Positions 6,230 to 53,258 of a stretch of DNA of 64,000 nt are shown piece after piece (the stretch's first letter is position 1; each line of letters begins with the position of its first letter). The notes beneath the pieces are model-generated. The model was given only the letters and a program-made list of their open reading frames with translations. It was not told the DNA's origin and searched no databases. Made by a program: the position numbers and the translations under genes. The stretch spans positions 124,001-188,000 of the forward strand of contig NZ_JBDJAW010000013.1 in NCBI RefSeq assembly GCF_039649665.1. The letters are read 5' to 3'. The stretch is from Microbispora sp. ZYX-F-249. GTDB taxonomy: Bacteria; Actinomycetota; Actinomycetes; Streptosporangiales; Streptosporangiaceae.

Positions 6230-6232
6230 GCC

Positions 6233-9148: not shown

Positions 9149-9217
9149 CGGTCACTCCAAGGGGAAACCGAACGTATTCGTGACCTTGCTAGCAGTGTGC
9201 GGGCGCCCGCCGCAACA

Positions 9218-13097: not shown

Positions 13098-13123
13098 GCG
13101 GCGCCGCCGGGTGAGACCGCGAC

Positions 13124-13150
13124 AGCCGGGCCGGGGAATCCGGCCCGGCT
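13124..13150. terminator. Bidirectional hairpin terminator
   Basis: A perfect 11-bp stem (AGCCGGGCCGG, 13124-13134, pairing with 13140-13150) with a 5-nt loop lies between two converging genes, the GH26 mannanase and the second kinase. It overlaps the kinase stop codon (13149-13151). There is no U-tract, as is common in actinomycetes. Confidence 0.7.
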
Positions 13151-14597: not shown

Positions 14598-14696
14598 GAG
14601 TGGCAGCTTACCGATTTGTGTAGTGCGACCTGTAGAGACCATGCCGGGAAATTGTTGAGATCTTCTGTCAAAGATCCTGACAACCTCCCCGCAGGA

Positions 14697-37470: not shown

Positions 37471-37854
37471 ATGGCATGCCGCATCAGTGAGCTGGTCATC
37501 GACGCCGCCGACCCCGAGCGGCTCGCCGAGTTCTGGAGCAAGGTCCTCGGCTATGTCGAACTCGGCAGGGAGGACGACGGGAGCATCGAGATCGGGCCGC
37601 CCGACGCCGGCTTCGGCGGCCCGCAGCCCACTCTCATCCTCAGCCCCAGCAGCGACCCGCGGGCCGGGAAGCTCCGGCTGCACATCGACGTCAATCCCAC
37701 CGACCGCGACCAGGACGCCGAGCTGGAGCGGCTGCTCGCTCTGGGCGCCAGGCCCGCCGACGTCGGCCAGACCGGCACCGAGAGCTGGCACGTCCTGGCC
37801 GACCCGGAAGGCAACGAGTTCTGCCTCCTGAGTGCCCGGCTCCGGCCCCTCTGA
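37471..37854 (+). CDS. VOC-superfamily (glyoxalase-like) protein
   Basis: 127 residues. Starts ISELVIDAADPERLAEFWSKVLGY and ends WHVLADPEGNEFCLL, the usual beta-alpha-beta vicinal-oxygen-chelate pattern (glyoxalase-like domain), with metal-type His/Glu positions in HIDVNP and PEGNEF. The substrate is unknown. TACACT 8 nt before the ATG implies a leaderless transcript independent of ychF. Confidence 0.85.
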   Translation: MACRISELVIDAADPERLAEFWSKVLGYVELGREDDGSIEIGPPDAGFGGPQPTLILSPSSDPRAGKLRLHIDVNPTDRDQDAELERLLALGARPADVGQTGTESWHVLADPEGNEFCLLSARLRPL

Positions 37855-37919
37855 GGCCCCGGGCGACCGTTCCGGCGGCGCATGAGCCGTCACCCTTCAC
37901 TCCGCTGCGAAGAAGCGGT

Positions 37920-37946
37920 GTGACCATTTCCGCCCCGATCGCGTCT
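37920..37946 (+). promoter_or_regulatory. Probable ECF-type autoregulated promoter
   Basis: GTGACC (37920-37925), 16-bp spacer, CGTCT (37942-37946), matching the actinobacterial ECF consensus. The CGTCT lies 8 nt before GTG 37955, so the sigma gene would be transcribed from its own start codon. Confidence 0.55.
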
Positions 37947-37954
37947 GGTCTGGT

Positions 37955-38442
37955 GTGACAGACACGAGAACGCGGGGGGCATCATCATCGAGGAGCTGTA
38001 CCGCGAGCACTGGGCGCTCGTGTGCGGGTTCCTGTTGCGCCGCACCCGCGACCCGCACCTCGCGGAGGATCTGGCTCAGGAGACCTTCGTCAAGGCGACG
38101 AGGGCGCTGCTCGGCTGGCGCGGCGAGAACGCGGCCGCATGGCTGCTCACCATCGCCCGCAACGTCCTGGTCGACCACGTCCGGCGCCACCGCCGCGAAC
38201 TGGACCTGCCCCGCCCCGACGAGCTCGGCGTGCCCCCGCTGCACATCGAGTCGCTGGCCGTGCGCGACGTCCTGGAGCGGCTGCCCGAGGAACAGCGCAG
38301 GCTGCTCACCTTGGTCTACTTCGACGGCTTCTCCCTGGTCGAGGTGGCCGCGATGACCGGCAGGAAGCACACCACTGTCAAGACGGCCGTGTGGCGGGCC
38401 AGGGCCGCCTTCGCCGATCAGTACGGAGTTCCCCATGACTGA
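37955..38442 (+). CDS. ECF RNA polymerase sigma factor (probable frameshift near the start)
   Basis: Region 2 (LYREHWALVCGFLLRRTRDP, EDLAQETFVKATRAL, then AWLLTIARNVLVDHVRR) and region 4 (VLERLPEEQRRLLTLVYFDG, SLVEVAAMTGRKHTTVKTAV) are present. The conserved reading extends upstream to about 37981, but no ATG, GTG or TTG exists in that frame before 38020, which would cut off region 2. The promoter evidence points to GTG 37955, which is in a different frame; one extra G in the G6 run at 37974-37979 would join the two. So either a frameshift mutation, slippage, or a base-call error. It overlaps the next gene by 8 bp (ATGACTGA). Confidence 0.8.
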
Positions 38443-39358
38443 CGACGACCTGTTGCCGCCCATGCCCGACTTCGATCCCAAGGCGACCCGACGGGCCGTC
38501 CGGCGGGGTGTCGCCCGCACCGCGCTCACGGTGCTGGCGGCACTGCTCGCCCTCGTCCTGGCGGCGACGGTGGGCTCCGGCCTGGTCCAGCGGCGCGGCG
38601 ACCGGGAACTGCGCATGACCGACGTGCTGGGCACCGCCTTCAAGATCTACAACCCGGCGTACGACATCGAAGTCCGGAGCTGGGGTGCCACCACACCGCT
38701 GTCGATGTCGTTCACCGTGGCCGCCAGGCCGATGCGGGCCATCGGGGGCTTCGTCGAGGGGTACGGCGGGGCCGAGCATGTCGTCACCCAGGACTTCTTC
38801 GGCCACGTGGGCAGGCTGCCGCTCGGGACCTACGCCGGCACCACGCTGAGCAGGGCGTTGATGAACGTGGGGACGACCCTCCAGCGCAAGGAGGACGGCC
38901 GCAAGGTGCTGGCCAGACTTCCGGAGGAGCTCAACGCGCTGGCGGTGGTCGAGTTCGCCAGGCCGCTCACCCCCGACGAGCTGGTCGCCTTCACCGCCGG
39001 ACACAAGTCGTATGCCGAGAAGGTGGTTCTCGAGCGGCGTCCCGGATCGATACCCATCACCTGGGGAGGGATGACGATGTGGGACAGGGCGCCGATGACG
39101 GGAGCCGACGATGAGCCGATCAAGTCGGACTTCGGGAACTTCCGCCGCTGGGTCGGCATCCTCGAGGACCACGACGACGACAACCTGCACGACTTCGACC
39201 TGAGCCTGGCCCGGCTGCGCAAAGCCGCGAACGACGGCCTGGCCTACGCCTACGTGGACTCGATGTCGACGATCGCGCAGCTACGGAAGATCATCGAGGA
39301 TCCGCAGGTCCGCACGGTCCGCCTGGCGGACGTCACCTACGATCTCGAACGGCCCTGA
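38435..39358 (+). CDS. Membrane-bound sigma-factor regulator (Sigma_reg_N/C-like)
   Basis: 307 residues. A cytoplasmic N-terminus of about 30 residues, one membrane helix (about 33-53: ALTVLAALLALVLAATV) and a large extracytoplasmic domain. Length, layout and position directly after an ECF sigma gene resemble Bacillus-type anti-sigma regulators with Sigma_reg_C domains; the closing segments SMSTIAQLRKIIEDPQVRTV fit. No zinc-type HxxxCxxC motif is present. It probably holds the sigma factor at the membrane until a cell-envelope signal arrives (inference). Translationally coupled by the 8-bp overlap. Confidence 0.78.
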   Translation: MTDDDLLPPMPDFDPKATRRAVRRGVARTALTVLAALLALVLAATVGSGLVQRRGDRELRMTDVLGTAFKIYNPAYDIEVRSWGATTPLSMSFTVAARPMRAIGGFVEGYGGAEHVVTQDFFGHVGRLPLGTYAGTTLSRALMNVGTTLQRKEDGRKVLARLPEELNALAVVEFARPLTPDELVAFTAGHKSYAEKVVLERRPGSIPITWGGMTMWDRAPMTGADDEPIKSDFGNFRRWVGILEDHDDDNLHDFDLSLARLRKAANDGLAYAYVDSMSTIAQLRKIIEDPQVRTVRLADVTYDLERP

Positions 39359-39790
39359 GACGGCCCGGTCGCGCAAAGCCGCGGTCACGGTGGCGGGGAC
39401 CCGCCATCGGGCGTGAGCGACGGGCTCGCCGTCCTCCGGGTGCCGGATTCCGGCGACGATCAGGGGCGGACAATCTCAGACCGCTCTGCCGTATAAGAAG
39501 CCGCAAACCGCCCTGGGGCATCACCTGCCGCAGCCCTCCCTCCGGTCAGATCCTCCATGGCCTGCGGAAACGCTTGGCCCAACTGCCCTAGACGCATTCG
39601 GGAGGCTCGTTGAAGCATCGAGATGAGGCCGTTTGGGTGCGAAGTCGCCTGTGAATTCTCCCTTTTCGCGACAAATTTCGTCGGTGCCGTAATCCGGCGC
39701 GGGCGGAAGGGAGACGGCCGAATTCGGGCACCGGGAAAAGCCCAGGTGGCCTGACCTGCCGAGGCCCCGATCGGGCCCAAGGAGGGGACC
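39359..39790 (+). other. Non-coding gap before the secreted coiled-coil gene
   Basis: 432 bp with no gene I can support. The only clear signal is the ribosome site GGAGGGG at 39781-39787, 4 nt before the ATG of the next gene. The half nearest that gene is relatively AT-rich (around 39650-39690) and may hold its promoter; no box stands out. Confidence 0.5.
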
Positions 39791-40633
39791 ATGCATCGGA
39801 AATCCAGACAGCTCGCTCTCGCGGCGATTGTCGCCTCGACCTTCACGGCCGGCGGAATCGCGCTGCTCGGCGGCACCGCCTCCGCGGCCACCGGCGCCCC
39901 GCAGGCGGGTGAGCCCGGCGGCTCGGTGCGGGCGACGTCGTACACCATCAGCGAGCCGCTGCTGGCGACGGAGTCCGCGTCCGGGGCCAGGACGATCTCG
40001 GCTCCGCTGTTCAGCGCGCCGCTGATCACGGAGAGCGCGTCGGCCTTCGCTCCGGGGGAGCTCCCGGCGACCAGCCTGGTATCCCAGGCGCCGCAGCTCA
40101 CCGTCTCCATGCCGCAGATGTCCCTCGCGGCGCTGCCGCGAACCGTCTCGGTCACGGTACGCGAGCAGTTCCCGGCGCAGTGGTCCGCACGGCAGTACAG
40201 CGGTTCCAGCCTCCACAGCTCGTCATGGCGCAGCGAGTCGCTGGGCGGCGCGAGCCTGCGCAGCGAGGCGTTCCCGTCCGCGTCGATGGAGCAGATGGCG
40301 GAGGAGGCCCGGCAGAGCATCAGGGACGAGGCGAGCAGCGCCAGGCAGCAGATCATGCAGGAGGCGACGAACGCGCAGCAGCGCATCGAGCAGATGTCCC
40401 TGCACGCGCAACAGCAGCTGTCGGAGACGCAGTCGCAGTCGTCGGCGAGCCAGTCGCAGAGCTCCTCCTCGCTGCCGCAGAGCGCTCCGGAAAGCGCTCC
40501 GGAAAGCGCTCTGGGAAGCGCCCCGGAGAGCCTCCCGCCCACGATCACGGGTCCGGAGAGCGCGCCGCCGGCGGGCATCCCGGAGACCTCGATCGAGTCG
40601 TCCTCCTCGTCCTCCTCGGAGGCGTGCCAGTAG
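39791..40633 (+). CDS. Secreted Ser/Gln-rich protein with short coiled coil
   Basis: 280 residues. A signal peptide (about 1-33: MHRKSRQLALAAIVASTFTA, ending ASA) is followed by a Ser/Ala-rich segment. A predicted helical heptad stretch (about 160-225: MEEMAEEA-like, DEASSARQQIMQEATNAQQR) comes next, then a low-complexity tail of SQSQSSS, a PESAPESA repeat and a run of seven Ser. No family recognised. Strong ribosome site GGAGGGG. A hairpin terminator follows, so it is probably a single transcription unit. Confidence 0.75.
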   Translation: MHRKSRQLALAAIVASTFTAGGIALLGGTASAATGAPQAGEPGGSVRATSYTISEPLLATESASGARTISAPLFSAPLITESASAFAPGELPATSLVSQAPQLTVSMPQMSLAALPRTVSVTVREQFPAQWSARQYSGSSLHSSSWRSESLGGASLRSEAFPSASMEQMAEEARQSIRDEASSARQQIMQEATNAQQRIEQMSLHAQQQLSETQSQSSASQSQSSSSLPQSAPESAPESALGSAPESLPPTITGPESAPPAGIPETSIESSSSSSSEACQ

Positions 40634-40685: not shown

Positions 40686-40995
40686 CTGTCCGGGGGCGGA
40701 GGTGTGGTCGGTTTCGATATGCCTGCGAGCTGCGAAGACAGCAATAGGTGGCGGTTAGGTAATCGATGCCCCGGCTGGCCAGGCGTAACGTGCTTTTCCG
40801 CGGAGTGGATAGGCGTGGGGCGCCTCGACGGGATGTGGACCCGGTTTGCTCGGTCGCGGCGATGCTTGCACCATGGGCGTGGCTTACCTGGAAGAATTGG
40901 CGAGACCGCTAGGGTGAATACTTCAATGCGGTTAACCGGATCGAGAGCAAGAGGAAACCGCGCCAGCCGGAGGGATCGGCGCGAGCGGAGGCGTG
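40686..40995 (+). promoter_or_regulatory. Leader region of the Tcp-like secretion locus
   Basis: About 310 bp without a gene, the only long gap at the 5' end of a 12-kb co-directional block, so the main promoter should be here. TAACGT (about 40787), TAGGGT (about 40911) and TTAACC (about 40933) are possible elements; none forms a convincing full promoter. GGAGG 4-5 nt before ATG 40996 is the ribosome site of the first gene. Confidence 0.4.
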
Positions 40996-42006
40996 ATGGC
41001 TCGCAGGTCAGACGTCCAGCAGGATCCGCGGATCGCTGGCGACCCTGACCCGTACCCACTGGAAGGCTTCGATCCCGCGAGCGGCGCGCGCGCCGCGGCC
41101 CCCCGCCGCAGAGGCTGGAGCGGCGGCGGAGGACGCTGGCTCGTCTGGACCGGGCGGGTCATCCTCTGGGCACTGATCGTCGTCATCGTGGTCAACGGCG
41201 TCCGTGCGGTGTTCGAGCGCTCCCTGCAGGACGACGCCGCCCCCTCGACGCCGGCCGGGACGGCCACCTCCGGGTTCCCGGCGACGCAGGCGGCGGCCTT
41301 CGCCAACCAGTTCGCGGCGGTCTATCTCAACTACGACGCGGCCAACCCCCAGCAGCGCGCGGAACGGCTGAAGTCGTTCCTGCCGGAGGGCGCGGACGAC
41401 CAGTTCGGCTGGAACGGCTACGGGCGCATGTCGGCCGGGGCCTTCCAGTTCGCCGGGATCGAGGTCGTCGACGAGCACAACGCCCGGGTGACCGTGACGT
41501 ACCAGTCCGGGGGCAGCCGTGGGCTGCTGTCCGTGCCGGTCTACTACGACAACGGCAGGTTCGTCGTCGCCGCTCAGCCGGCCCTGCTGCCCGCGCCGGG
41601 GCCGGCGGGTCTGCCGCAGCTCCCGGATCCCGACCGCGACTCCGCCACCGAAGCCGAACTACGTCCCCAGCTCGAAGGCTTCTTCAAGGCGTACGCCGCG
41701 GGCAACCAGGTCGACCTGCAGCGGTACGTCGCGAGCGGGGTGACCGTCAACGGGTTCGGCGGCGAGTTCACCCTCGCCGAGCTGAAGGACGTCGTGGTCC
41801 CGCCGGGCGGCACCGACAGCAGGAAGGTCACTGCGGTGGTCGTGTGGGCGGTGGCGTCCGGCGAGCAGGCGGCACCGGCGAGCCCGTCGCAGGACCCGGC
41901 GGCGCAGCCCGCCGGTCTCGAGCAGGCCTATGAGTTGACGATCGAAAAGCAGGGCGGCAAGTGGTTCGTCAGGGACATCCAGGGTGCGAACCGGTCCGTG
42001 GGGTAG
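40996..42006 (+). CDS. TcpC/VirB8-like conjugal transfer membrane protein
   Basis: 336 residues. A disordered basic N-terminus, one membrane helix (about 48-70: WLVWTGRVILWALIVVIVV) and an extracytoplasmic part with two NTF2-like repeats (about 95-190 and 215-335), the layout of TcpC from pCW3 and Tn916 Orf13. TcpC-type proteins are VirB8-like scaffold components. First gene of the locus, GGAGG ribosome site. It is followed by the small membrane protein gene after 50 bp. Confidence 0.82.
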   Translation: MARRSDVQQDPRIAGDPDPYPLEGFDPASGARAAAPRRRGWSGGGGRWLVWTGRVILWALIVVIVVNGVRAVFERSLQDDAAPSTPAGTATSGFPATQAAAFANQFAAVYLNYDAANPQQRAERLKSFLPEGADDQFGWNGYGRMSAGAFQFAGIEVVDEHNARVTVTYQSGGSRGLLSVPVYYDNGRFVVAAQPALLPAPGPAGLPQLPDPDRDSATEAELRPQLEGFFKAYAAGNQVDLQRYVASGVTVNGFGGEFTLAELKDVVVPPGGTDSRKVTAVVVWAVASGEQAAPASPSQDPAAQPAGLEQAYELTIEKQGGKWFVRDIQGANRSVG

Positions 42007-42056: not shown

Positions 42057-42344
42057 TTGATACTGAAGACCATCGCGGACCACGTCCTTGATCTGGCCGC
42101 GCCGTCGCCGGCGCCGACGACGGGCATCAACACCGAAGGTCTCGCCGACTTCCTCCGGAAGTTCTTCGCCCCGCTCTTCCTCGCGGTCGTCTCCGTAGTG
42201 GCGCTCTTCTTCCTCTTCACCCGCGAGATCACCAGGTTCGTCCAGTTCATCATCCTGGCGATCGCGATCGGCGTGATCTTCTACGTTCCCAACATCATCG
42301 AGGTGACGGCGAAGGCGATCGCGGGCGCACTTGGCATCAAGTGA
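42057..42344 (+). CDS. Small two-helix membrane protein, TcpD/pilin-like
   Basis: 95 residues. A short polar N-terminus (AAPSPAPTTGINTEGLADF) and two membrane helices (about 38-55 and 62-80). Such a small protein between TcpC and TcpE matches the tcpC-tcpD-tcpE order of pCW3; a VirB2-like pilin is possible. TTG start at 42057 with GGGAGGG 8-9 nt upstream. The function is inferred from synteny only. Confidence 0.72.
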   Translation: MILKTIADHVLDLAAPSPAPTTGINTEGLADFLRKFFAPLFLAVVSVVALFFLFTREITRFVQFIILAIAIGVIFYVPNIIEVTAKAIAGALGIK

Positions 42345-42366
42345 CCGGGCGGAGAGGAGGTTCGGG

Positions 42367-45084
42367 GTGGATCTGCCCACATATACGAATATTTGGCGCA
42401 TCGAGAAGCGGCTGTACAAGCTGTACGACCTACGGCTGCCGATGCCGCTTCCGGTCGTCTGGATCGGTGTGTTCGTGGGTGTCTCCGTGCCGTGGTGGGT
42501 CTTCCTCTACCTGATCGGCCTGCCTTTCGCGGCCCCGTGGCACGTCATCTACCTGGTTCCCCCCGGCGTGCTCACCTGGCTGTCCACCCGTCCCGTGATC
42601 GAGAACAAGCGTCTCACCGAGCTGCTCCAGTCGCAGCTCCGCTACATGAGCGAGCCCCGGACCTGGTGCCGGATGGCCCCGTTCGACGAGCCGGACGAGA
42701 TCGCCCTCACGGCGCGCGTCTGGCGGACCACGCCGCCGGCCATGCCGGCGAAGGGCGGGGCGGCGAACGGCAGGGCGGCCCGCAAGGCGCGCCGCGGTAT
42801 CTCGGTCAAGGTGCCGATCGCGGAGGTCCCCGGGACCGGCGCACGGCCGGCCTCGAAGGCCGCCGCACGTGCGGGCGCGCGTCAGGTGGACCCCTCGCGT
42901 GTCGTACGCCCGGCGGTGGCGGCCGCCGCGGCCGCCGCCGCACCGGTCGTGGCCGACACCCCGGCCCCCATCCCGGCCACCACCGCCCGCGCCGGCGGTG
43001 AGCGCGTCTACCACCTCTCGGAGCCGGCCGCACTTCCCGTACGCGAGGAGGCGCGGGGCGGCCACCTCACCGGTCCGGATCGTGGGCGCGAGCAGCGGCA
43101 CGAGAGCCACGAGGACCGGCACGAGGATCACCACGAGGATCACCACGAGGGCCAGGAGCGGCCACCCGCCTCTCCGGCCGCCTCGCACACCGCTCCCGCC
43201 GAGGCTGCGGACGCGCCCGCCGTCCCGCCCATCGGTACAGAGGCGCTGCGCCGCCTGCGCAGGCTCGCCGCTTCGGCCGAACCCCGCGCCGTGAGGCACT
43301 CCGGTGTGACCCCCTTCGCCGAGACGCCCCTGCGGCCCGTCGAGCAGGCGCCGGAGCAGGCGCCGGCGGCTGAGACGCCGGCAGCGCAGACACCGGTGGA
43401 GGAGGCATCGAAGGAGGCGCCGTCCGCGCCCCGGGAGCCCGCAGACGGCGAGCGGGACGCCGAGGCGCTCGAGCAGCATCGCAAGGGCCGGCCGCCGCGG
43501 CTCGTGCGCCCCAGGGTGCCGGGAGACGCCTGGGGCGAGACGCCCCGGACCGCCTCGCCGGAGCCGGAGCGGACGCCACCGGCGGCGGACGAGGCGCCAG
43601 CGGCCACGGGATACGCGGAGACGGCAGACGCGGAGACGGCAGACGCGGAGACGGCAGACGCGGAGACGGACGAGCCCGCGACGGCCGCTCCCACCGCGAC
43701 GGACACAGCGGCGGACGCAGCGACGGACACACCGGCAGACACAGCGGTAGAGACAGCGACGGACACCGCGACGGACACACCGGCAGACACAGCGGTAGAG
43801 ACAGCGACGGACACAGCGACGGACACAGTGGCGGGGCCCGCGCCCGATCCGTCCCCGGACACGTCGCCCGAGAGCAGGACGCCTGACGCTCCCGCCGACG
43901 CCGGTTCCGTCGCGGACGGCGCGCGGGAGGGGACGCACGCACCGGGGTCCCGGCCGTACGAGAGCGCCGGAGGCGCGTCCCGTGGCGCCCCCCGTGGCGC
44001 CGGTGCCCGCACCCCGGGCGCGGGGGACGTGACGCCTCCCGCGGCCCCCGCCGCGGTGTCGATCCGGGCCGTGCCCGCGGGCCCCCGGGCGGCGGGCCCG
44101 GCCGGTCCCGCCCGGCCGTCGCTGCCCGCCCCCGGCAGGACCACCCCCGGCAGGCCGGCGCACGAGGAGCCGCCGCGCCTGCGCCGCGTCGAGGCCGTCG
44201 TCGGCCGCGACACCTCGGGCGGCTGGCGGCGCCTGGCACAGGTGGTCGTGGGCGGCAGCCGTACGGACGGCATGGAGGTCGACGAGGCCCGGGCCCGCGT
44301 CCCGCTCACCAGCAGCAGCCGGATCATGGTGCTCGGCTGCACGGGCGGCGCCGGGCAGACGACCACGGCGTTAATGCTGGGCCACACGCTGGCCCGCTAC
44401 CGGGAGGACCGCGTGCTCGCGCTCGACGCGAACACCGGAGAGGACACGCTCACGACGAGGATCGCCGCCGAATCCCCCGAGACGCTGAGCTCGCTCATCG
44501 AGAGCTCGGAAGAGGTGACCGGCTATCTCGGCATGCGGGCGTACACGACGCGCTGCGAATCGGGACTGGAGGTCGTCGGAGCGGACACCGACGACCGGGT
44601 GACGCAGCGCCTGGCGGATCGCGCGTTCCTGTCCGACTGGCGCAGGACGCTCGCCGCGCTCGACCGGCACTACCGGCTTACCGTGATCGACCCCGCGGCC
44701 GCGCTGGCGGCCCGGCTCCTGCCGTACGCCGACCAGCTCGTGCTGGTCGCCCCCGCGAGCGAGGACGCCTCCGAGGCGGTTGCGATGACCTACGAATGGC
44801 TCGACGGGCACGGCTGCTCCGACCTGAGGCGCCGCGCCGTAATGGTGATCAACGGCGTGAGCCGCCGCAGCCTCCCCGACGTGGAGCAGGCCGAGGCGGT
44901 GGCCAGCGGCCGCTGCCGGGCCATCGTACGGGTGCCGTGGGAGGACGAGCTGGCTCCCGGGCGGCCGGGGCCGGTCGACGTCAATCACCTCCGAATGGGC
45001 GGCCGCAGGGCGTACGTTGCGCTTGCGGGTGTGATCGTGAGCGGCCTGGCGACTGTCCAGGCCAAGCAGGAGGTGGCCAGATGA
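42367..45084 (+). CDS. TcpE-like membrane domain fused to a ParA/MinD-like domain with altered P-loop
   Basis: 905 residues. Residues 1-115 resemble TcpE (LPTYTNIWRIEKRLYKLYD, two membrane helices, then a segment ending LRYMSEPRTW). Residues about 130-620 are disordered, with Ala/Thr/Glu repeats. Residues about 650-905 are a ParA/MinD-type ATPase fold: GCTGGAGQTTT at 657-667, VLALDANTGEDTLTTR, and LTVIDPAAALAARLL. The Walker lysine is replaced by glutamine (Gln664), so ATP hydrolysis is doubtful. GTG start with GGAGG 7-8 nt upstream. It may position the secretion complex (inference). Confidence 0.78.
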   Translation: MDLPTYTNIWRIEKRLYKLYDLRLPMPLPVVWIGVFVGVSVPWWVFLYLIGLPFAAPWHVIYLVPPGVLTWLSTRPVIENKRLTELLQSQLRYMSEPRTWCRMAPFDEPDEIALTARVWRTTPPAMPAKGGAANGRAARKARRGISVKVPIAEVPGTGARPASKAAARAGARQVDPSRVVRPAVAAAAAAAAPVVADTPAPIPATTARAGGERVYHLSEPAALPVREEARGGHLTGPDRGREQRHESHEDRHEDHHEDHHEGQERPPASPAASHTAPAEAADAPAVPPIGTEALRRLRRLAASAEPRAVRHSGVTPFAETPLRPVEQAPEQAPAAETPAAQTPVEEASKEAPSAPREPADGERDAEALEQHRKGRPPRLVRPRVPGDAWGETPRTASPEPERTPPAADEAPAATGYAETADAETADAETADAETDEPATAAPTATDTAADAATDTPADTAVETATDTATDTPADTAVETATDTATDTVAGPAPDPSPDTSPESRTPDAPADAGSVADGAREGTHAPGSRPYESAGGASRGAPRGAGARTPGAGDVTPPAAPAAVSIRAVPAGPRAAGPAGPARPSLPAPGRTTPGRPAHEEPPRLRRVEAVVGRDTSGGWRRLAQVVVGGSRTDGMEVDEARARVPLTSSSRIMVLGCTGGAGQTTTALMLGHTLARYREDRVLALDANTGEDTLTTRIAAESPETLSSLIESSEEVTGYLGMRAYTTRCESGLEVVGADTDDRVTQRLADRAFLSDWRRTLAALDRHYRLTVIDPAAALAARLLPYADQLVLVAPASEDASEAVAMTYEWLDGHGCSDLRRRAVMVINGVSRRSLPDVEQAEAVASGRCRAIVRVPWEDELAPGRPGPVDVNHLRMGGRRAYVALAGVIVSGLATVQAKQEVAR
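43606..43830 (+). repeat. In-frame tandem repeats in the linker
   Basis: Three identical 15-bp units (43621-43635, 43636-43650, 43651-43665) encode TADAE-type repeats. Two near-identical 48-bp units (43723-43770, 43771-43818) encode Ala/Thr/Asp-rich repeats. All keep the frame, so they lengthen the disordered linker without breaking the gene. Confidence 0.85.
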
Positions 45085-45114: not shown

Positions 45115-47592
45115 ATGAGCAGGGCGCGCAGTCGCCTCGCGGTGCGTTACTTCGACGATCGCGTTCTCCTCACCGACTCGGCGGCCTGGGCGTACTTCCG
45201 GCTGCCGACGGTGAGTTACGAGTTCCTCACCCCCGAGGAGCGCGAGGCGCTGGCCACCAACATCACGATCGCGCTGGCCGCGATCAGGATGCAGGACGCC
45301 GAGGTGCACCTGCGGATCGCGCACCGGGCCTATCCGGCCGCCGAGTGGGCGATGGCGCTCAACTCGACCTCGGACGAGGGCCCGGGGTGGCGGGAGTACC
45401 TGGAGGAGATGTACCGCCACGTCTGGGCGAAGGACTTCTGGAGCAAGGAGATCTATCTCGGCGTACGGCTCGGGCCGCGCGGCGCGCAGCTCGGCACCGG
45501 CGTGCTGGCCCAGCTCTTCGGCTTCTACCAGCGCAGCGAGAAGACGCTCGGCATCGAGGACGACCACGTGCCGGACAAGGAGATCGCCCGGTGGACCGAG
45601 GCCGCGGAACGGCTCGGCCGGGCCCTCGCCTCCAGCGCGTTGTACGCCCGCCACGCCACCTCCACGGAGATCGCCTGGCTGTACCAGCACGCGGCCGCCG
45701 GCGGGCTCGGTGAGCCGCTGCCCTCGGCCACGCCGCGCCGCAGGTGGGGCAAGGGCGAGATCGAGTCGCTGGTGGAGGGGCAGATCCACAACGGCAGGTC
45801 GCTGCTGCGCATCGAGCAGCCGGCCGGAGACTCCTGGACCGCGTACCTGTCGTTCGCCCGGTTCCCCGATCTGATGCCGTTCCCCGACGGGGAGCCGTGG
45901 CTGCATTTCGCCGACCAGTTGCCGTTCCCGGTGGAGGTCTCCAGCCGGATGCGGCTGATCCCTCCGGTCAGGGCGAGCAAGGACGTGGCGCGCAAGCTGG
46001 CCCACGCCCGCGACATGGACATCCACATCCGTGAGGCGGGCGCCGAGGCGCCGCTCGCGCTGGCCGAGCAGATCGACGCCGCCCGCATGCTGGAGCACGG
46101 GATCACCAAGGAGCGCCTGCCGTTCGTCTACGGCTGGCACCGGCTCAGCGTCAGCGCGCCGACCGAGGAGATGTGCGTGCAGCGCGTCGAGGCCGTCGTG
46201 GAGCACTACCGCGACATCGGCATCGACGTCGTCAACTCCACCGGCGACCAGTTCTCGCTGTTCTGCGAGGCCCTGCCGGGGGAGAAACTGCGGGTCAACG
46301 CGTACGCCCAGCGGCAGCCGCTGCGCACGATCGCGGGCGGCATGGCCACCGCGACCGTCGAGCTCGGCGACCGGGTGGACGAGTCGAACGCCGGGTGGAT
46401 CGGGCCGTACGTCGGGGAGACGCTGGGACGGGCCCGCAGCATCGTGCACTTCGACCCGCTCGTCGCGGCGGCGCGCAATCGCCCGACGGCCATCGCGATC
46501 ACCGGTGAGCCGGGCGGCGGCAAGACCACGCTCGCGTTGCTGCTGATCTACCAGATGGCGCTGCGCGGCGTCACGATCGCGGTCATCGATCCCAAGGGCG
46601 ACGCCGAGTCGCTCGTACGACTGCTGCAACGCCGGGGCCGCAAGGCACGGGTCATCCCGCTGGGGTCGGCCGCGCCGGGCCTGCTCGACCCGTTCTCGTT
46701 CGGCGACGACATCGCGACGAAGAAGACGATGGCGACAGAGACCCTGCGGCTGCTGCTGCCGAGGATGTCCGAGGAGCGCGAGTCCGCCATGATCCAGGCG
46801 GTCGCCGCGGTCTCCAACGAACCCGACCCCTCGCTGGGCAAGGTGGTCGACCACCTGGAGCAGTCGACCGACCCGGCGTCCAAGAACCTGGGGGCCGTGC
46901 TCCGGTCGATGTCGGAGATGCACCTGGCCCGGCTGTGCTTCGACGCCTCGGGCGGCGAGCAGATCGACACCGAGGGCTGGACGACCGTGTTCACGCTCGG
47001 CGGCCTCACGCTGCCCGACGTGATGACGGCCAGGGACGACTACTCCTACGAACAACGGCTGTCGGTGGCGCTGCTCTACCTGGTGTCGCAGTTCGCGCGC
47101 CGTCTGATGAACGGGCTCGACCGGCGTACGCCGAAGGCGATCTTCCTGGACGAGGCGTGGGCGATCACGTCCACGCCCGAGGGCGCCAAGCTCGTGCCCG
47201 AGGTCTCCCGGATGGGCCGCTCGCGCAACACGGCGCTCGTCCTGGTCTCGCAGAACGCCGGTGACCTGCTCAACGAGCAGGTGACCAACTGTCTGTCGTC
47301 GGTCTTCGCGTTCCGTTCGACCGAACGCGTGGAGGTCGAGCACGTGATGGAGCTCCTCGGCGTGGACCCGTCGGAGGAGCACAAGGCCGTGCTGCGCTCC
47401 CTGGGCAACGGGGAGTGCGTCTTCCGGGATCTGGACGGCCGGGCAGGCCGTATCGGGGTGGACCTGATCTCGGAGGAGCTGCTGCGGTGGCTTGACACCA
47501 ATCCGACACACGACAAACCCAGCGAGAACGTGCATGATCTTCTTGACGGGGGCTCCGGTCGGTCGGGGGTCGCGCAGGAGGTGCGATCGTGA
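45115..47592 (+). CDS. VirB4-like conjugation ATPase
   Basis: 825 residues. The N-terminal half (about 1-440) is the VirB4-type region without motifs; AWAYFRLPTVSYEFL near the start is common to actinobacterial homologues. The C-terminal ATPase has Walker A GEPGGGKTT at 464-472, IAVIDPKGDAESLVR, Walker B AIFLDEAW near 680, and VSQNAGDLLNEQV. VirB4 proteins energise pilus or channel assembly at the inner membrane. It starts 30 bp after the TcpE/ParA gene and its stop overlaps the next start (GTGA). A coupling-protein (TcpA/VirD4) identity is less likely because of the N-terminal region. Confidence 0.88.
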   Translation: MSRARSRLAVRYFDDRVLLTDSAAWAYFRLPTVSYEFLTPEEREALATNITIALAAIRMQDAEVHLRIAHRAYPAAEWAMALNSTSDEGPGWREYLEEMYRHVWAKDFWSKEIYLGVRLGPRGAQLGTGVLAQLFGFYQRSEKTLGIEDDHVPDKEIARWTEAAERLGRALASSALYARHATSTEIAWLYQHAAAGGLGEPLPSATPRRRWGKGEIESLVEGQIHNGRSLLRIEQPAGDSWTAYLSFARFPDLMPFPDGEPWLHFADQLPFPVEVSSRMRLIPPVRASKDVARKLAHARDMDIHIREAGAEAPLALAEQIDAARMLEHGITKERLPFVYGWHRLSVSAPTEEMCVQRVEAVVEHYRDIGIDVVNSTGDQFSLFCEALPGEKLRVNAYAQRQPLRTIAGGMATATVELGDRVDESNAGWIGPYVGETLGRARSIVHFDPLVAAARNRPTAIAITGEPGGGKTTLALLLIYQMALRGVTIAVIDPKGDAESLVRLLQRRGRKARVIPLGSAAPGLLDPFSFGDDIATKKTMATETLRLLLPRMSEERESAMIQAVAAVSNEPDPSLGKVVDHLEQSTDPASKNLGAVLRSMSEMHLARLCFDASGGEQIDTEGWTTVFTLGGLTLPDVMTARDDYSYEQRLSVALLYLVSQFARRLMNGLDRRTPKAIFLDEAWAITSTPEGAKLVPEVSRMGRSRNTALVLVSQNAGDLLNEQVTNCLSSVFAFRSTERVEVEHVMELLGVDPSEEHKAVLRSLGNGECVFRDLDGRAGRIGVDLISEELLRWLDTNPTHDKPSENVHDLLDGGSGRSGVAQEVRS

Positions 47593-50027
47593 GCGTGCGC
47601 AGGAACGATCCCAGGGGTCGCACCAGAGAGGGCGGCAGACGCGGGAGGCGGGTCCGCCGGACCCTGGCCCTGCTGTTCGTCGCCTTCGCGGCGTTCGTGA
47701 CGCTTCCGCTGGTCTTCCCGTCGGACACGGCGAGCGCCGTCGGGCCATGTGACCTGTCGCCGGCCCTCGCCCCGGAGATCGTGGGCGGCGGCGTCGACGG
47801 GCTGGTCCAGCCGCCGGCCGCGGATGTGACCGCGGCCGCCGGTCAGAACGCCGAACAGGCGCCGAAGGAACCGGCGACCAACTACGAGCGGTACGGCATG
47901 GCCGGCCAGTTCTGGCACACCTACGACCTGGGGTGCTCCGACGTCACGGCCGTGCTCGGCAACGCCTGGGCCAACACGGTCTTCTCCTGGGCCAAGGCCG
48001 TCGACCGGCTGACGATCAGCACCTACCAGGCGGCGGCCACCGAGGGCCCGCTGCAGCCCATCAAGGAAGTCGCCGACAAGATCGTCACCAACCTCGCCGA
48101 CGCGATGTACTGGCCGTACCTGCGGCCGATCGTCATCCTCGGCGCGATCTGGCTGGCGTGGTACGGCCTGATCCGCAAGCGCGCGACGACGACCACCGAG
48201 GGCGTCATCTGGATGGTCCTCGCCGTGACGGTCGCCATCTGGTTCTTCAGCCGCCCGGGCGACTTCACCAACCTCGGCAAGACCGTGACCGACAAGACCG
48301 GCGAGATCGTCAACTCGGCGTTCTCGGGACTGCCCGGAGCGGGCGGCGCGTCCTGTCTGCCGATGAACGAGGCCGCGCCGGGCGAGGTGCCGAGCGAGCC
48401 CACCGCGGGCGGCTACGGCCGCCAGGGCACGCCCGGCGTGGCGCAGAACGCCGACGCGCTGTGGTCGGTCCTGGTCTGCAAGCCGTGGCTGATGGGCGAG
48501 TTCGGCACCGCCGATCCCGACGCCGGTCTCGTCAAGGGCCTGGGCACGAAGGTCCTGAACCTCCAGGCGATCGACGCGAAGGAACAGGCGGCAGGCCAGG
48601 TCCCGGCCACCGACGAGCACCAGAAGCGATTCGAGGAGGAAGTCGCCAAGCCGATGCAGAGCACCCCGGCGTACTTCCTCTTCCAGGGCAAGGACTGGAC
48701 GAGCCGCCTGGGCATCGCCATCGGCGCCTTCATCGCGGCGATGGTCGCCGGACTGCTCATCTTCCTCGTCGCGGTGTCGCTGCTCGTCCTCAAGGTCGGC
48801 TTCCTGTTGCTGCTGATGCTCGGGCCGATCTTCCTGCTGATCGGCGTGCATCCGGGGTCGGGCCGCATCATCGCCATGCGCTGGGTGGAGATGCTGATCG
48901 GCACCCTGCTGCGCCAGGCCGTGCTGGCCCTGGTGCTCGGGGTCCTCGTGTACGGCTACGCGCTGATCATCTCGACCACCCTGCCCTGGGGCATGCAGAT
49001 CCTGTTCATGGCGCTGATGACGATCGCGGTCTTCTTCTACAGGCGGCCGTTCCAGCATCTGTTCGCCTCGATGGACGGGCACACGATCACCACCCGGATG
49101 CTCGGCGAGGCCACCACCGCGCCGACGCTGTCGCGGGCGGCCAACGCGCTTCCGCCGGTGGCGGCGGCCCGGGCGGGCCGGTGGGGCCTGCGCAAGGCCG
49201 AGCCGGTCATCGGCGCGGCCATGATGGCGACCGGCGCGGCCACGGCCGCCGCCGCGGCGGGCGTGGCACAGGGCCGCGTGCGCGGCGAGGAGGGCGCGGG
49301 CAACGTCGCCGCCCAGGCGGGAGCACGTGCGGGGGCGCAACCCGCGCCGCTCGACGCCGACGCGCAGGGGGCCGGTCGCCGCAAGGCCGCAGGCGCCGCC
49401 GCACGTCCCGGAACGGCCCCGCCGCTCAACCTGTCGGGCGTCCGGCCCGCCTCCCCGGCCCGGTCCGCCGCACAGGCCGCGTCGTCGGCGGCGTCGGCGT
49501 CGGCGTCGGCGTCGCCGGGAGGAAGCCCGGCCGCCCCGCCGCAGCGGGTCACCGGCGCGTCCGCCGCGCCCGCCGCGCCGTCCCGCGGCGGTTCGAGCGG
49601 CGGTTCGAGCGGCGGCCCTGGTGGCGGTTCGAGTGGTGGCTCGGGTGGCGGCTGGTTCAGCGGCAGGTCGGGCGGCTGGGCCTCCCGGCCGTCGTCCCCG
49701 CGTCCGTCCGGCGGCGGCTCGGGCGGGTTCTTCGGCGGCTCGCGCGGCTCGTCCGGCGGCTCGAGCAGGTCCGGTGGGCCGAGCAGGTCGGGCGGCTCCG
49801 GTGGCTCGGGCGGCTCGGGTGGTCTGTTCGGCGGTTCGTCCCGGCGCGGTGACGGCGGCCGTTCCCGGCCCGCGCCGCCACGCGACTCCGGATCGTCCTC
49901 GAGTCGTCCCCGTTCGGCCGAGCCGCCCCCGCTCTGGCTGCCGAGCAGGGGAGCGGGCACGCGCCGCGACGGCGACGCGCCGACGCCGTTCTGGGCCAAG
50001 CCCGCCGACCGCGACTCCGGCGACTGA
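47589..50027 (+). CDS. VirB6/TcpH-like polytopic membrane protein with Gly/Ser-rich tail
   Basis: 812 residues. A signal-type N-terminal helix (about 22-45), then about eight membrane helices (about 175-480) in the VirB6/TrbL pattern. The rest (about 520-812) is Ala-rich and then Gly/Ser/Arg-rich (SGGSSGGPGGGSSGG and similar). VirB6-like proteins form the inner-membrane channel of type IV systems. GTG start shares four bases with the VirB4 stop, and its own stop overlaps the next start (TGATG). Confidence 0.82.
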   Translation: MSVRRNDPRGRTREGGRRGRRVRRTLALLFVAFAAFVTLPLVFPSDTASAVGPCDLSPALAPEIVGGGVDGLVQPPAADVTAAAGQNAEQAPKEPATNYERYGMAGQFWHTYDLGCSDVTAVLGNAWANTVFSWAKAVDRLTISTYQAAATEGPLQPIKEVADKIVTNLADAMYWPYLRPIVILGAIWLAWYGLIRKRATTTTEGVIWMVLAVTVAIWFFSRPGDFTNLGKTVTDKTGEIVNSAFSGLPGAGGASCLPMNEAAPGEVPSEPTAGGYGRQGTPGVAQNADALWSVLVCKPWLMGEFGTADPDAGLVKGLGTKVLNLQAIDAKEQAAGQVPATDEHQKRFEEEVAKPMQSTPAYFLFQGKDWTSRLGIAIGAFIAAMVAGLLIFLVAVSLLVLKVGFLLLLMLGPIFLLIGVHPGSGRIIAMRWVEMLIGTLLRQAVLALVLGVLVYGYALIISTTLPWGMQILFMALMTIAVFFYRRPFQHLFASMDGHTITTRMLGEATTAPTLSRAANALPPVAAARAGRWGLRKAEPVIGAAMMATGAATAAAAAGVAQGRVRGEEGAGNVAAQAGARAGAQPAPLDADAQGAGRRKAAGAAARPGTAPPLNLSGVRPASPARSAAQAASSAASASASASPGGSPAAPPQRVTGASAAPAAPSRGGSSGGSSGGPGGGSSGGSGGGWFSGRSGGWASRPSSPRPSGGGSGGFFGGSRGSSGGSSRSGGPSRSGGSGGSGGSGGLFGGSSRRGDGGRSRPAPPRDSGSSSSRPRSAEPPPLWLPSRGAGTRRDGDAPTPFWAKPADRDSGD

Positions 50028-50665
50028 TGAGAAGCCGGAACAGCGATCGGGGCAAGGGCCTGGCCTTCGCGGCGGCCGTCGTGGTGCTCGCCGCCGTCGG
50101 CGTCTATCTCACGATGGCCCCGGCGTCCGAGGGCGACGAGCAGCCGCGGGAGCAGTCCGTCGCGGCCACCGCTGTGGCGACGAGGGCCGTCCGGCAGCCC
50201 AGCCCGGTGGCCACGACCCCCGGCGCCTTCGACGTCTACGCCTATCTGCCGCTGTCGAGGGAGGAGATCGGCGCGGCGGCCGACCTGGCGCGCCGCTTCA
50301 CCGAGGCGTACGGGACCTTCTCGGCCGGTGAGGAGCCGGCGGCGCGCGCCGACCGGCTGACGCGGTTCGCGACCGACGAGTTCGGCGGGCAGCTCACCAG
50401 GACCGTCACCGACCCCGCGGTGGTGGACCAGAACGAGGCCGGCCAGGTGACCTCGAAGGGGTCGGCGAAGGTCGCGACGATCCGCGACATGACGGCCAAC
50501 CAGGTGGTGTTCGTCGTCGACTCGGTCCGCCACGTGACGGACAAGGACGGCCAGAAGGACGTGCCCGAGCGGTTCGCCGTGACCGTGGTCAAGGCGGGGA
50601 CCGACTGGCGGGTGTACGACCTGCAACTGGCCGACGCCGGTCAGGACGGGGACACCTCGCCGTGA
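50027..50665 (+). CDS. Second VirB8/TcpC-like single-span protein
   Basis: 212 residues. One N-terminal helix (about 10-30: GLAFAAAVVVLAAVGVYL) and an extracytoplasmic domain (about 75-205) with an NTF2-like pattern: AAADLARRFTEAYGTFSAGE, then alternating strands up to WRVYDLQLAD. This resembles half of the TcpC protein at the start of the locus. It overlaps both neighbours (TGATG at its start; GTGA-type at its end), so all three are coupled. Confidence 0.72.
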   Translation: MRSRNSDRGKGLAFAAAVVVLAAVGVYLTMAPASEGDEQPREQSVAATAVATRAVRQPSPVATTPGAFDVYAYLPLSREEIGAAADLARRFTEAYGTFSAGEEPAARADRLTRFATDEFGGQLTRTVTDPAVVDQNEAGQVTSKGSAKVATIRDMTANQVVFVVDSVRHVTDKDGQKDVPERFAVTVVKAGTDWRVYDLQLADAGQDGDTSP

Positions 50666-51783
50666 CCGCCTCGACGCGCGTCGTGCGCAGGCTCGCGTCG
50701 GCGGGGCGGGACTGGCGGACGATCGCCGTGGCCCTGGTGGTGATCGTCCCGGCCACGCTGTTCGGCTCGATCATCCTGATGACCCCCAGCCCGTCGATCC
50801 TCCTCGGCGGCGGCGCGGCCGAGAACTGCGCCGAGGCGGCCACCGCGGACACGGCGGACGTCTCCCAGACGGCCCAGGGCGACATCCCGCCGGACTACCT
50901 GGAGCTCTACAAGAAGTTCGGCAAGCAGATCGGCGTGCAGTGGAACGTCCTGGCGGCCATCGGCAAGCGGGAGACGAACCACGGGCGCTCGACGCTGCCG
51001 GGCGTGAGCAGCGGCACCAACTACGCGGGGGCCGCCGGGCCGATGCAGTTCCTCATCAGCACCTGGGGCGGCCAGGCCAAGATGAAGATCGAGCCGGACA
51101 TCAACGGCTACGCCTCCGACGGCGACGGGGACGGCTACGGCGACGTCTACAACCCGGCGGACGCCATCCTCGGCGCCGCCAAGATGCTCAAGCGCAACGG
51201 CGCGCCCGACGACCTCAGAAAGGCGATCTTCGTCTACAACCGGGCCACCTGGTACGTCGACCAGGTGCTGGAGATCGCCAAACGCTACGCGGCGACCGGG
51301 GACATCGGCGTGCCGCCCGAGGCCGACCCGGCCTGCGACTCCGGCTACGTCGACAGCGCCACCGACGACGTCGTGCGGGACATCCTCGAGTACGCTCTGG
51401 CGCAGCGGGGCAAGCCGTACCGGTGGGGTGGCACGGGCCCGGACGCCTTCGACTGCTCGGGGATCATCTACATGGCCTATCGGAACGCGGGTCTGACCAT
51501 TCCCCGGACGACCTTCGGCCAGTGGCCCTTCGGCAAGAAGATCGAGGAGGGCGAGGAGCGGCCCGGAGACCTCGTCTTCTTCAACGCCGGTCCGGGCACG
51601 TCCGCGGACAATCCCGGGCATGTCGGCATGGTCGTGTCGCCCGGGAAGATGATCGAGGCGCGGTGCACGCTGTGCGGGCCGATCAAGGTCACGACCTACC
51701 GCGACCGGCCGAACATCGTGGGCTTCACCCGTCCGCTGGACAACGAGACCGTCGTCGCGCAGCTCAAGCGGGCCGTGACGTGA
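50662..51783 (+). CDS. Lytic transglycosylase-NlpC/P60 peptidoglycan hydrolase
   Basis: 373 residues. A membrane helix (about 22-42), a lysozyme-like transglycosylase domain (about 80-215; catalytic Glu104 in GKRETNHG), and an NlpC/P60 peptidase domain (about 240-360; Cys265 in DCSGIIYMAY and His320 in NPGHVGMVV). The same pairing occurs in Tn916 Orf14 and pCW3 TcpG, which open the cell wall for the conjugation channel. Start GTG at 50662 overlaps the upstream stop; the Nudix gene overlaps its stop in turn. Confidence 0.9.
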   Translation: MTASTRVVRRLASAGRDWRTIAVALVVIVPATLFGSIILMTPSPSILLGGGAAENCAEAATADTADVSQTAQGDIPPDYLELYKKFGKQIGVQWNVLAAIGKRETNHGRSTLPGVSSGTNYAGAAGPMQFLISTWGGQAKMKIEPDINGYASDGDGDGYGDVYNPADAILGAAKMLKRNGAPDDLRKAIFVYNRATWYVDQVLEIAKRYAATGDIGVPPEADPACDSGYVDSATDDVVRDILEYALAQRGKPYRWGGTGPDAFDCSGIIYMAYRNAGLTIPRTTFGQWPFGKKIEEGEERPGDLVFFNAGPGTSADNPGHVGMVVSPGKMIEARCTLCGPIKVTTYRDRPNIVGFTRPLDNETVVAQLKRAVT

Positions 51784-52271: not shown

Positions 52272-53258
52272 GTGAGCGGACGCGCGTATATGAGAGCCGC
52301 GTCCTCGGCGGTCGCGTCCGTGGGCCTCGCCACGGTGGCGATCCTGGTCATGGGCCCAGTGATCGGCGCCAACGCCGACCCCGTGGAGCCGTGCGACCCC
52401 GTCCAGGACCCCCAGTGCGCCGTCGTCACGGTCACCGTCACCCAGACGCCGCCGGCCACCTCCTCGGCGGAGGCGAGCCCCACGGCCGAGCCGGTGGTGA
52501 CCAAGACCGTCACCATCACGCCGACGCCGAAGCAGACCAAGACCAAGACGCCCAAGCCGGCCACGACGACCACCGCTCCCCCCGCGTCCACCACGGAGCA
52601 GGATCTCCCGCCGCAGACCACGCAGACGCTCCCCACGCTGACCGAGGCCCCCACCCCGAGTCCCAGCCCGTCCCCCGAGGACGACGGACAGGTGCTGCTG
52701 CCCCAGGCGTCCGCGTCGCCGGACGTGGCGCAGCAGACCCCCACCGCGGGCGCGTCGTTCGAGCAGCCCGATCCCGAGACGGTGCCGATCGAGATCCGCA
52801 ACGCGTCTCCGGAGTACGACAAGCCGACGCTGGCCCACCGGCTCGCCATCCCCGCCGGGGTTCTCGTGGGCATCGCGCTGATCGCCTGGCTGATCTTCGA
52901 GGGCCGGCTGCGGAGGATGGCGCACGCCGCCGCCGTACGGCGGGGAGGCCCGGCCGCGGCGCGGACGGCGACTCCCGAGCCGGCGGCGTTCCCGGCGGCC
53001 ACGCCCGGCTACGCCCCGATGGTCGGCTTCGTGCCCATGCAGCCCTACACGATGGGGTATCCGCAGCAGCCGCAGCCCTACGGCTACCCGGTGCCGTACG
53101 GCTACGCCCAGCCGTACGGCTATCCGCCGGCGGACCCCGCCCAGATGCAGGCCCAGATGCAGGCCCAGCAGCAGGCACAGGGTCAGCAGTATCCGGCCCC
53201 GGCCGACCCCTGGGCCGAGGCAACCGGCCCCGGCGAGGACCCGAACACCCGCCGCTGA
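52272..53258 (+). CDS. Pro/Thr-rich surface protein with C-terminal membrane anchor and Gln/Tyr-rich tail
   Basis: 328 residues. A signal peptide (about 1-35, ending IGANA), a long Pro/Thr/Ser segment with TPTPKQTKTKTPKP-like runs (about 50-180), a membrane helix (about 195-217: LAIPAGVLVGIALIAWLIF) and a cytoplasmic tail of PYGYP repeats and QAQMQAQQQAQ. GTG start with GGGAGG 6-7 nt upstream. Last gene of the block, followed by a strong terminator. No family recognised; it may be an envelope spacer for the secretion complex (inference). Confidence 0.78.
   Translation: MSGRAYMRAASSAVASVGLATVAILVMGPVIGANADPVEPCDPVQDPQCAVVTVTVTQTPPATSSAEASPTAEPVVTKTVTITPTPKQTKTKTPKPATTTTAPPASTTEQDLPPQTTQTLPTLTEAPTPSPSPSPEDDGQVLLPQASASPDVAQQTPTAGASFEQPDPETVPIEIRNASPEYDKPTLAHRLAIPAGVLVGIALIAWLIFEGRLRRMAHAAAVRRGGPAAARTATPEPAAFPAATPGYAPMVGFVPMQPYTMGYPQQPQPYGYPVPYGYAQPYGYPPADPAQMQAQMQAQQQAQGQQYPAPADPWAEATGPGEDPNTRR

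Follow-up and report, generated by a model that had tools for sequence, protein, structure and literature searches.

The 64,000-nucleotide stretch of Microbispora sp. ZYX-F-249 DNA analysed here (the window) carries on its forward strand, at positions 42367-45084, a gene whose protein joins a component of a type IV secretion system (T4SS) to a predicted ParA/MinD-like domain lacking both of the lysines with which such ATPases handle ATP. The reading frame is open throughout (906 codons including the stop, giving a 905-amino acid protein) and begins with a GTG at 42367, 5' of which lies a ribosome-site-like sequence, CGGAGAGGAG, at 42350-42359; the N-terminal residues MDLPTYT are invariant in 32 of 32 aligned relatives. 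The first part of the protein is a TcpE domain of the VirB3 class (42367..42720), conserved across loci, that matches PF12648 with 77.8 bits against a cut-off of 29.9 and with 83.3 bits in a search of the whole genome, where this gene is the sole TcpE match. An Ala/Pro-rich, low-complexity tether follows (42721..44196), recognised by its composition and tandem repeat arrays, and the remainder, starting with a conserved GGWRRLA lead-in (44197..45081), is a putative pseudo-ParA domain assigned from predicted structure and fold matches. Against Pfam this last part scores 20.7 bits with CbiA and 17.8 bits with AAA_31, both under the curated cut-offs. A first-pass annotation made from the letters alone had proposed just such a fusion of a TcpE membrane domain to a ParA-like domain with an altered P-loop, and its details hold: GCTGGAGQTTT occupies residues 657-667 (44335..44367), frame and codon place Gln664 (CAG, 44356-44358) where the Walker A lysine would be, and the motifs LDANTGED and VIDPAAAL are both present. 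In addition, Thr659 stands at the position of the signature lysine.

The C-terminal domain is, on the evidence of modelling, of the ParA/MinD fold. An AlphaFold2 model built on an alignment of 46 sequences (the window and 45 other loci) has a predicted local distance difference test (pLDDT) score of 86 and a predicted template modelling score of 0.87, and displays the deviant Walker A P-loop fold of ParA/MinD ATPases. Its top Foldseek matches are FlhG, ParA, FleN, McdA, MinD and Soj, with E values down to 6e-10. Superposition with VIA-align gives a Z of 24.3 to Soj (2bek; root-mean-square deviation 2.7 over 233 residues), 22-23 to MinD and FleN, 22.2 to FlhG (4rz3), 20.0 to BcsQ (6yay) and 19.1 to 3fkq, an E. 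rectale protein that we take to be TadZ, so that the structural comparison with ParA and MinD proposed at the outset bears out the assignment. A sequence search of solved structures found VpsO (E 2e-6), BceF, McdA and MinD, and a PHROGs search gave a ParA-like match of 35.4 bits. The domain does not belong to the BcsQ family as defined by TIGR03371, scoring 18.6 bits against a cut-off of 157.85.

The glutamine is fixed amongst orthologues. A scan of 149 related genomes gave some match in 112, and the best matches of 82 genomes (L002-L083; 81 of 90 genomes of the window's own family and one of a sister family) all carry the P-loop G-C-(T/A/S)-x-(G/S)-A-G-Q-(T/S). Gln is present in 81 of the 81 aligned domains, in L047 (outside the alignment, having been missed by the motif filter, and read by eye) and in three more diverged own-family genomes (GCTVGAGQ, GCHGGAGQ and GCTVGAGQ), making 85 of 85 readable orthologous domains. 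An intact lysine, which the first-pass annotation had named as the observation that would overturn its view, occurs in none of them and is found only in separately encoded relatives. The signature-lysine column of the 81 holds 79 Thr, one Ala and one Ser, with His in one further orthologue; Gln and Thr thus stand in place of the Walker A and signature lysines of ParA/MinD proteins. Retained are the Walker A' aspartate (Asp77, 81/81), the Walker B aspartate (Asp165, 80 of the 80 with letters at this position), the P-loop Thr/Ser and the last two P-loop glycines (81/81 each). The Gln codon is CAG in all 81, including a copy with an in-frame TAG (genome G067), whilst the neighbouring 5' glycine is encoded by three different codons. 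Since Gln664 is fixed with a single codon beside a glycine that uses three, its conservation goes beyond chance, and chance and sequencing error were both rejected.

All 17 non-orthologous relatives whose P-loops were read keep the lysine: eight from whole genomes (L084-L091, KGGVGKT; two of the pairs each represent one gene met in two genomes) and nine borne on plasmids, of which eight read KGGVGKT or KGGIGKT and the ninth KGGVAKST. In a tree of 68 Q rows and eight Lys rows, from which 13 rows had first been removed (12 near-copies and one truncated) and in which L047 is missing, the two groups are split by a 100/100 branch, to be read with a long-branch warning as seven long Q rows meet the Lys rows; a second tree of 24 chosen Q and 15 Lys rows gives the same split. 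A DNA pattern search for Gln P-loops in a class-wide sample returned 30 loci. Eight are real relatives, all from the window's own family, and the other 22 (21 of them from other families) encode no relative and were dismissed as chance, like the matches of a reversed-pattern control; one match outside the family, G163:C42, was left aside.

The tether is, as had been described beforehand, a repetitive linker of some 490 residues, with two tandem-repeat arrays (48 bp x 2.6 and 15 bp x 3.8). Across 108 loci the gap between TcpE and the ParA domain measures 133-1661 amino acids (median 559), and its composition is 20% Ala, 15% Pro and, at the median, 12% ILVFWYMC. Because the ends are conserved and the middle varies in length and, in the window, is rich in repeats, we regard it as a flexible arm. 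Fusion through a frameshift artefact was rejected, since 108 of the 113 loci that match TcpE have the fused frame. The remaining five comprise three that run off the contig (G055, G063 and G087), G043, whose frame ends after 161 amino acids with the Gln motif still present downstream, and G028, discussed below.

The fusion gene is the third of seven co-directional genes that together resemble a conjugation-type secretion channel. It is preceded by genes for TcpC, a VirB8-like membrane subunit of 337 amino acids (40993..42006; PF12642 69.4 bits, cut-off 27), and for a small membrane protein of 95 amino acids (42057..42344), with hydrophobic helices seen by eye and a Pfam match only under the cut-off, which from its position and size is possibly a TcpD counterpart. 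Downstream lie a VirB4/TcpF-type ATPase of 825 amino acids (45115..47592; AAA_10 232 bits, and NCBIfam TcpF 248 bits, under that model's cut-off) with an intact P-loop, GEPGGGKT; a polytopic membrane subunit of the VirB6/TrbL/TcpH type, 812 amino acids (47589..50027; PF04610 30.2 bits, cut-off 25.9; CD3337/EF1877 85.6, cut-off 120); a second TcpC-like protein of 212 amino acids (50027..50665; a weak PF12642 match of 17.8 bits, under the cut-off); and a VirB1-class wall hydrolase of 373 amino acids with SLT and NlpC/P60 domains (50662..51783; PF13406 24.8 and PF00877 74.5 bits, both over cut-off), an architecture that we presume to be that of CwlT. Conservation was counted in loci of at least 15 kb (64 on genome contigs and 37 others, the two sets overlapping in species; 31 of 132 loci fell under this length). 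Each of the seven genes is present in 63-64 of the 64 and 34-37 of the 37: TcpC and the small membrane protein in 64/64 and 36/37, the second TcpC-like protein in 63/64 and 36/37. Gene order is identical in 23 of the 23 loci for which it was printed. The VirB4 P-loop is invariant in all 131 aligned loci (132 given), so that the operon maintains one of its ATPases intact and the other in an inactive-looking state. A VirB3-class TcpE encoded just upstream of virB4 (a criterion taken from PMC12857230), together with VirB8-, VirB6- and VirB1-class subunits and an intact VirB4, defines a T4SS of mating-pair formation class FA (MPF_FA), and the ParA-like module that the first-pass annotation had placed on a secretion channel accordingly sits on the VirB3-class subunit of such a system. 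Type VII secretion system (T7SS) families had no match among the 19 window open reading frames scanned around the locus; the operon is a T4SS.

The surroundings of the operon are those of a chromosomal locus. Upstream, within the available flank, 53 of the 64 loci have ychF, 49 have rmuC and 36 have ispH; for the 37 the figures are 20, 12 and 3. A search through 345 genomes of the order detected TcpE in 327 (a count of TcpE, not of the fusion, with the best matches listed). Among the 18 without a match, 15 assemblies consist of at least 400 contigs, and two of them (G017 and G067) hold the ParA domain; G033 and G049 gave no TcpE match. Two of the 327 (G092 and G093) have an unfused TcpE typical of integrative and conjugative elements (ICEs), with a VirB4 only 24-25% identical. 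In the class sample TcpE was found in 33 of 34 own-family genomes, whereas the remaining 311 yielded no match over the cut-off. Scanning 84,980 species genomes gave 291 relatives; those named among the best 80 come from Microbispora, Planotetraspora, Sphaerimonospora, Streptosporangium, Sinosporangium, Sphaerisporangium, Thermocatellispora, Microtetraspora, Planomonospora, Planobispora, Nonomuraea, Spongiactinospora, an unplaced Streptosporangiaceae strain and an Actinobacteria metagenome-assembled genome.

Divergence within the operon follows that of its neighbour ychF. Mantel correlations with ychF distances are 0.93 for VirB4, 0.89 for the ParA domain and 0.87 for TcpE (n=63; none of 999 permutations as high), and the median p-distance of VirB4 (0.11) is below that of ychF (0.15). 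No relatives were found in viral contigs, no tRNA in the window and no step in G+C content at the locus. This is not the patchy, horizontally moving distribution expected of a conjugative element, and a mobile element was rejected on these grounds. Given the ychF/rmuC/ispH neighbourhood, the divergence that tracks ychF and the near-universal TcpE, the locus is, as judged from these genome comparisons, a vertically inherited core T4SS of the Streptosporangiales and not a current mobile element.

Conjugation also calls for a coupling protein and a relaxase encoded with the transfer genes, and neither is among the genes conserved with the operon; only the seven genes are common to the loci, the upstream side having been searched for the window's own genes only. 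A search of 12 genomes found coupling protein PF02534 in six, TrwC (PF08751) in two, Relaxase (PF03432) in three and Rep_trans (PF02486) in none. Where PF02534 is present it lies, in all genomes except G035 (see below), far from the locus or on another contig.

Relatives on plasmids offer a view of the system with and without its fused domain. A plasmid search with the ParA domain gave 58 records (20 listed, nine opened besides the Nonomuraea replicon), and only one exceeds 60% identity: Nonomuraea gerenzanensis NZ_LT559118.1 (L283), which has the Q form, measures 11.85 Mb and encodes a VirB4 90% identical to the window's. Though filed as a plasmid it is presumably a chromosome. The corresponding VirB4 search gave 816 records, four of them above 60% identity, namely the Nonomuraea replicon and three Nocardiopsis plasmids (71-75%); the remaining matches, among those listed, are about 31% identical or less. 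Two of the Nocardiopsis plasmids were opened, NZ_CP099838.1 (L291; T4SS region 5084-14935, VirB4 75% identical, TcpE 169 amino acids) and NZ_CP080600.1 (L292; 12559-22733, VirB4 71% identical, TcpE 158 amino acids), whilst the third, NZ_CP074136.1, is known from the listing. In both, TcpE is free and adjoins TcpC and VirB4; the one compared is 57% identical to the window's TcpE. A separate MinD with the P-loop KGGVGKTT is encoded on the opposite strand, at a distance of some 7 kb to tcpE and 5 kb to virB4. Directly 3' of it are a VirB6-like gene and then an SLT hydrolase gene. The VirB6-like proteins have TrbL scores of 23.0 and 25.7 bits, just under the cut-off of 25.9, and the one compared shares 31% identity over 519 columns with the VirB6 of the window. 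MOB-suite types both plasmids as non-mobilizable.

The VirB4 pair from these plasmids is nested in the core VirB4 clade (100/98), with branches longer than most core rows and with very long outgroup branches; the TcpE tree, weak and unrooted, agrees weakly. The plasmid MinD groups with the Lys forms, outside the Q clade. Because the plasmid VirB4 falls inside the core clade and the MinD among Lys forms, the core locus is the probable source of the Nocardiopsis plasmid systems, which would have shed the fused domain and rely instead on a free-standing, Lys-bearing MinD.

Lys-bearing MinD genes also lie beside other T4SS genes on an Iamia plasmid and a Rhodococcus koreensis plasmid, and this association of MinD with T4SS is the best evidence for a T4SS job of the fused domain. 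The R. koreensis protein (L287, 8638-9912) has the variant P-loop KGGVAKST, which retains the lysine. Others are found in T7SS loci, by EccB/EccE or mycP/eccD, and further ones have neither T4SS nor T7SS genes annotated nearby. The T7SS-locus proteins, which we take to be EspI-like, are among the closest Lys-bearing relatives (28-39% identical in all), but they keep the Walker and signature lysines, carry no TcpE and serve another secretion system. A MinD on a Streptomyces plasmid (L284, 8368-9966) groups with one of them, L088, with no T7SS gene in its (incomplete) gene table.

In MinD/ParA proteins ATP drives dimerisation and recruitment to membrane or DNA, for which both lysines are needed. 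The interpretation that we favour, with moderate confidence, is that a MinD/ParA ATPase joined to the TcpE of a domesticated T4SS core has become a non-cycling module that serves for docking or as a scaffold on the cytoplasmic side of VirB3/VirB4. Its ancestor would have been an ATPase of the kind that elsewhere in actinobacteria has a Lys-bearing gene of its own next to those of a T4SS or T7SS. Fused to TcpE through the long disordered tether, it would then have lost both ATP-gripping lysines, though neither the Walker A' and Walker B aspartates nor the P-loop Thr/Ser, and would have stopped cycling with ATP. A covalent hold on VirB3 may have replaced nucleotide-driven recruitment to the channel, leaving the latter needless, and this may be why the lysines went. 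At the cytoplasmic mouth of VirB3/VirB4 the domain would offer a permanent surface that acts as a scaffold or gate or presents a substrate or regulator, VirB4 would supply the energy, and the machine would do something other than conjugation. The picture suggested is of machinery that came from mobile DNA and was adapted to a different task. A bolder version, which we put forward only tentatively, is that in this order a conjugation machine has become a permanent organ of the cell, with no role in conjugation and no VirD4 of its own, in which the catalytically dead ParA on its flexible arm would take the place of the coupling protein as substrate receptor or channel gate, and that return to a plasmid swaps it for a Lys-bearing MinD.

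Several observations weigh against the docking interpretation. The retained aspartates and P-loop Thr/Ser are compatible with nucleotide still being bound and slowly hydrolysed. The AlphaFold2 model of TcpE, on which an assessment of docking would rest, is poor (pLDDT 52). In G028 (L276, 10213-10994) the operon is kept with a TcpE of 255 amino acids, no ParA domain and VirB4 directly next, from which it follows that the domain is not universally needed; in this draft genome the state reflects either natural loss or a fault of assembly. In G035 (L281) a VirD4-type PF02534 gene (G035:C1:1463054-1464061) lies some 12 kb beyond the ParA domain. Finally, a coupling protein of the FtsK/TcpA type may be encoded elsewhere: all four coupling and relaxase families are without a match in six of the 12 genomes, but that negative does not extend to FtsK/TcpA-type proteins.

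The first of these points would find its place in a nucleotide-responsive switch, in which Gln and the aspartates hold ATP and Mg as a slow or non-hydrolysing sensor and the nucleotide state gates VirB4 or substrate entry. The conserved Asp77, Asp165, Thr/Ser and glycines go beyond the needs of a pure scaffold, the model matches BcsQ, with Protein Data Bank entries titled with ATP or ADP, and McdA, which in the alignment has Ser at the signature-lysine position, has an entry titled as an ATP complex. McdA, however, retains the Walker A lysine, which all readable orthologues have lost together with the signature lysine, and we consider the switch rather unlikely. The missing coupling gene could instead be explained if the tethered domain were a surrogate, acting as the substrate receptor of a VirD4-less T4SS; half of the 12 genomes have no PF02534 match, and VirD4-less T4SSs exist in Gram-negatives, as a passage of PMC12857230 describes. 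The other half do have PF02534, in G035 close by, an FtsK-type protein may be encoded elsewhere and G028 keeps the operon without the domain, all of which makes this an improbable explanation. That the locus might simply be an ICE, or the relic of one, with a decaying ParA is suggested by parts that are those of MPF_FA conjugation systems and by the other ICE- or plasmid-type T4SSs that occur in the order. Against it stand the order-wide presence beside the same housekeeping neighbours, a VirB4 that diverges less than ychF, the invariant Gln and the lack of viral-contig relatives, window tRNA and G+C step, and we give it very little credence.

The individual parts of the system are known already. 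MPF_FA systems such as pCW3 Tcp, ICEBs1 and Tn916 likewise have TcpC, a TcpE adjoining and upstream of VirB4, VirB6 and an SLT/NlpC hydrolase; the window's locus differs in being core-genome and vertically inherited, in having no conserved relaxase or coupling gene and in the fusion of TcpE to a Lys-less ParA. According to the review PMC12857230, TcpE is most likely the VirB3 of pCW3. The Nocardiopsis plasmid systems share the core-clade VirB4 but have an unfused TcpE and a separate MinD directly upstream of virB6. BcsQ, TadZ/CpaE, FlhG and VirC1 (the last by description only) are also ParA/MinD-fold accessories of envelope machines, but are separate soluble proteins of other systems: BcsQ and FlhG are so presented in an excerpt of PMC7439463 and TadZ in one of PMC8467076, and VirC1 is called ParA/MinD-like in the title of a reference within PMC4234268. 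Function without VirD4 is established, according to PMC12857230, for Gram-negative systems, and two exceptional T4SSs are named in that review, Streptococcus suis 89K and that of Saccharibacteria, essential on its host. A survey of actinobacteria in which an ICE had to have integrase, coupling protein, VirB4 and relaxase counted 17 of the T4SS type, and neither Streptosporangium nor Thermomonospora occurs as a word in its main text (PMC3218068). The features that appear to be new are the VirB3-borne ParA with its fixed lack of Lys, the vertical inheritance of a T4SS core throughout the order and the swap on plasmids, none of which was found in the open-access papers searched. A Gram-positive T4SS core is here maintained throughout an order in the manner of housekeeping genes, its VirB4 less variable than the adjacent YchF GTPase, in soil bacteria that are amenable to deletion attempts; the fixation of Gln for Lys and the plasmid swap amount to a natural experiment on the role of ParA/MinD proteins in secretion machines.

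The flanks of the operon are more variable. In the window the gap between ychF and tcpC (37471-40633) holds a glyoxalase-like gene, an ECF sigma factor gene, an overlapping gene for an unknown protein and Ser-rich or antisense open reading frames, each in 3-8 of the 64 loci and 0 of the 37. Beyond the hydrolase no gene is common to more than nine of 21 downstream stretches, the window's included; the commonest families occur in nine, eight and eight of the 21, with sdh genes among them, and four stretches encode an elongation-factor-like GTPase that by eye we take to be TypA. After the hydrolase in the window comes a gene for a Pro/Thr-rich protein (52272-53258), whose N-terminus, as judged by eye, resembles a signal sequence and which has, again by eye, a membrane helix; it is present in 42 of the 64 loci, 0 of the 37 and seven of the 21 downstream stretches and is a possible accessory or cargo.

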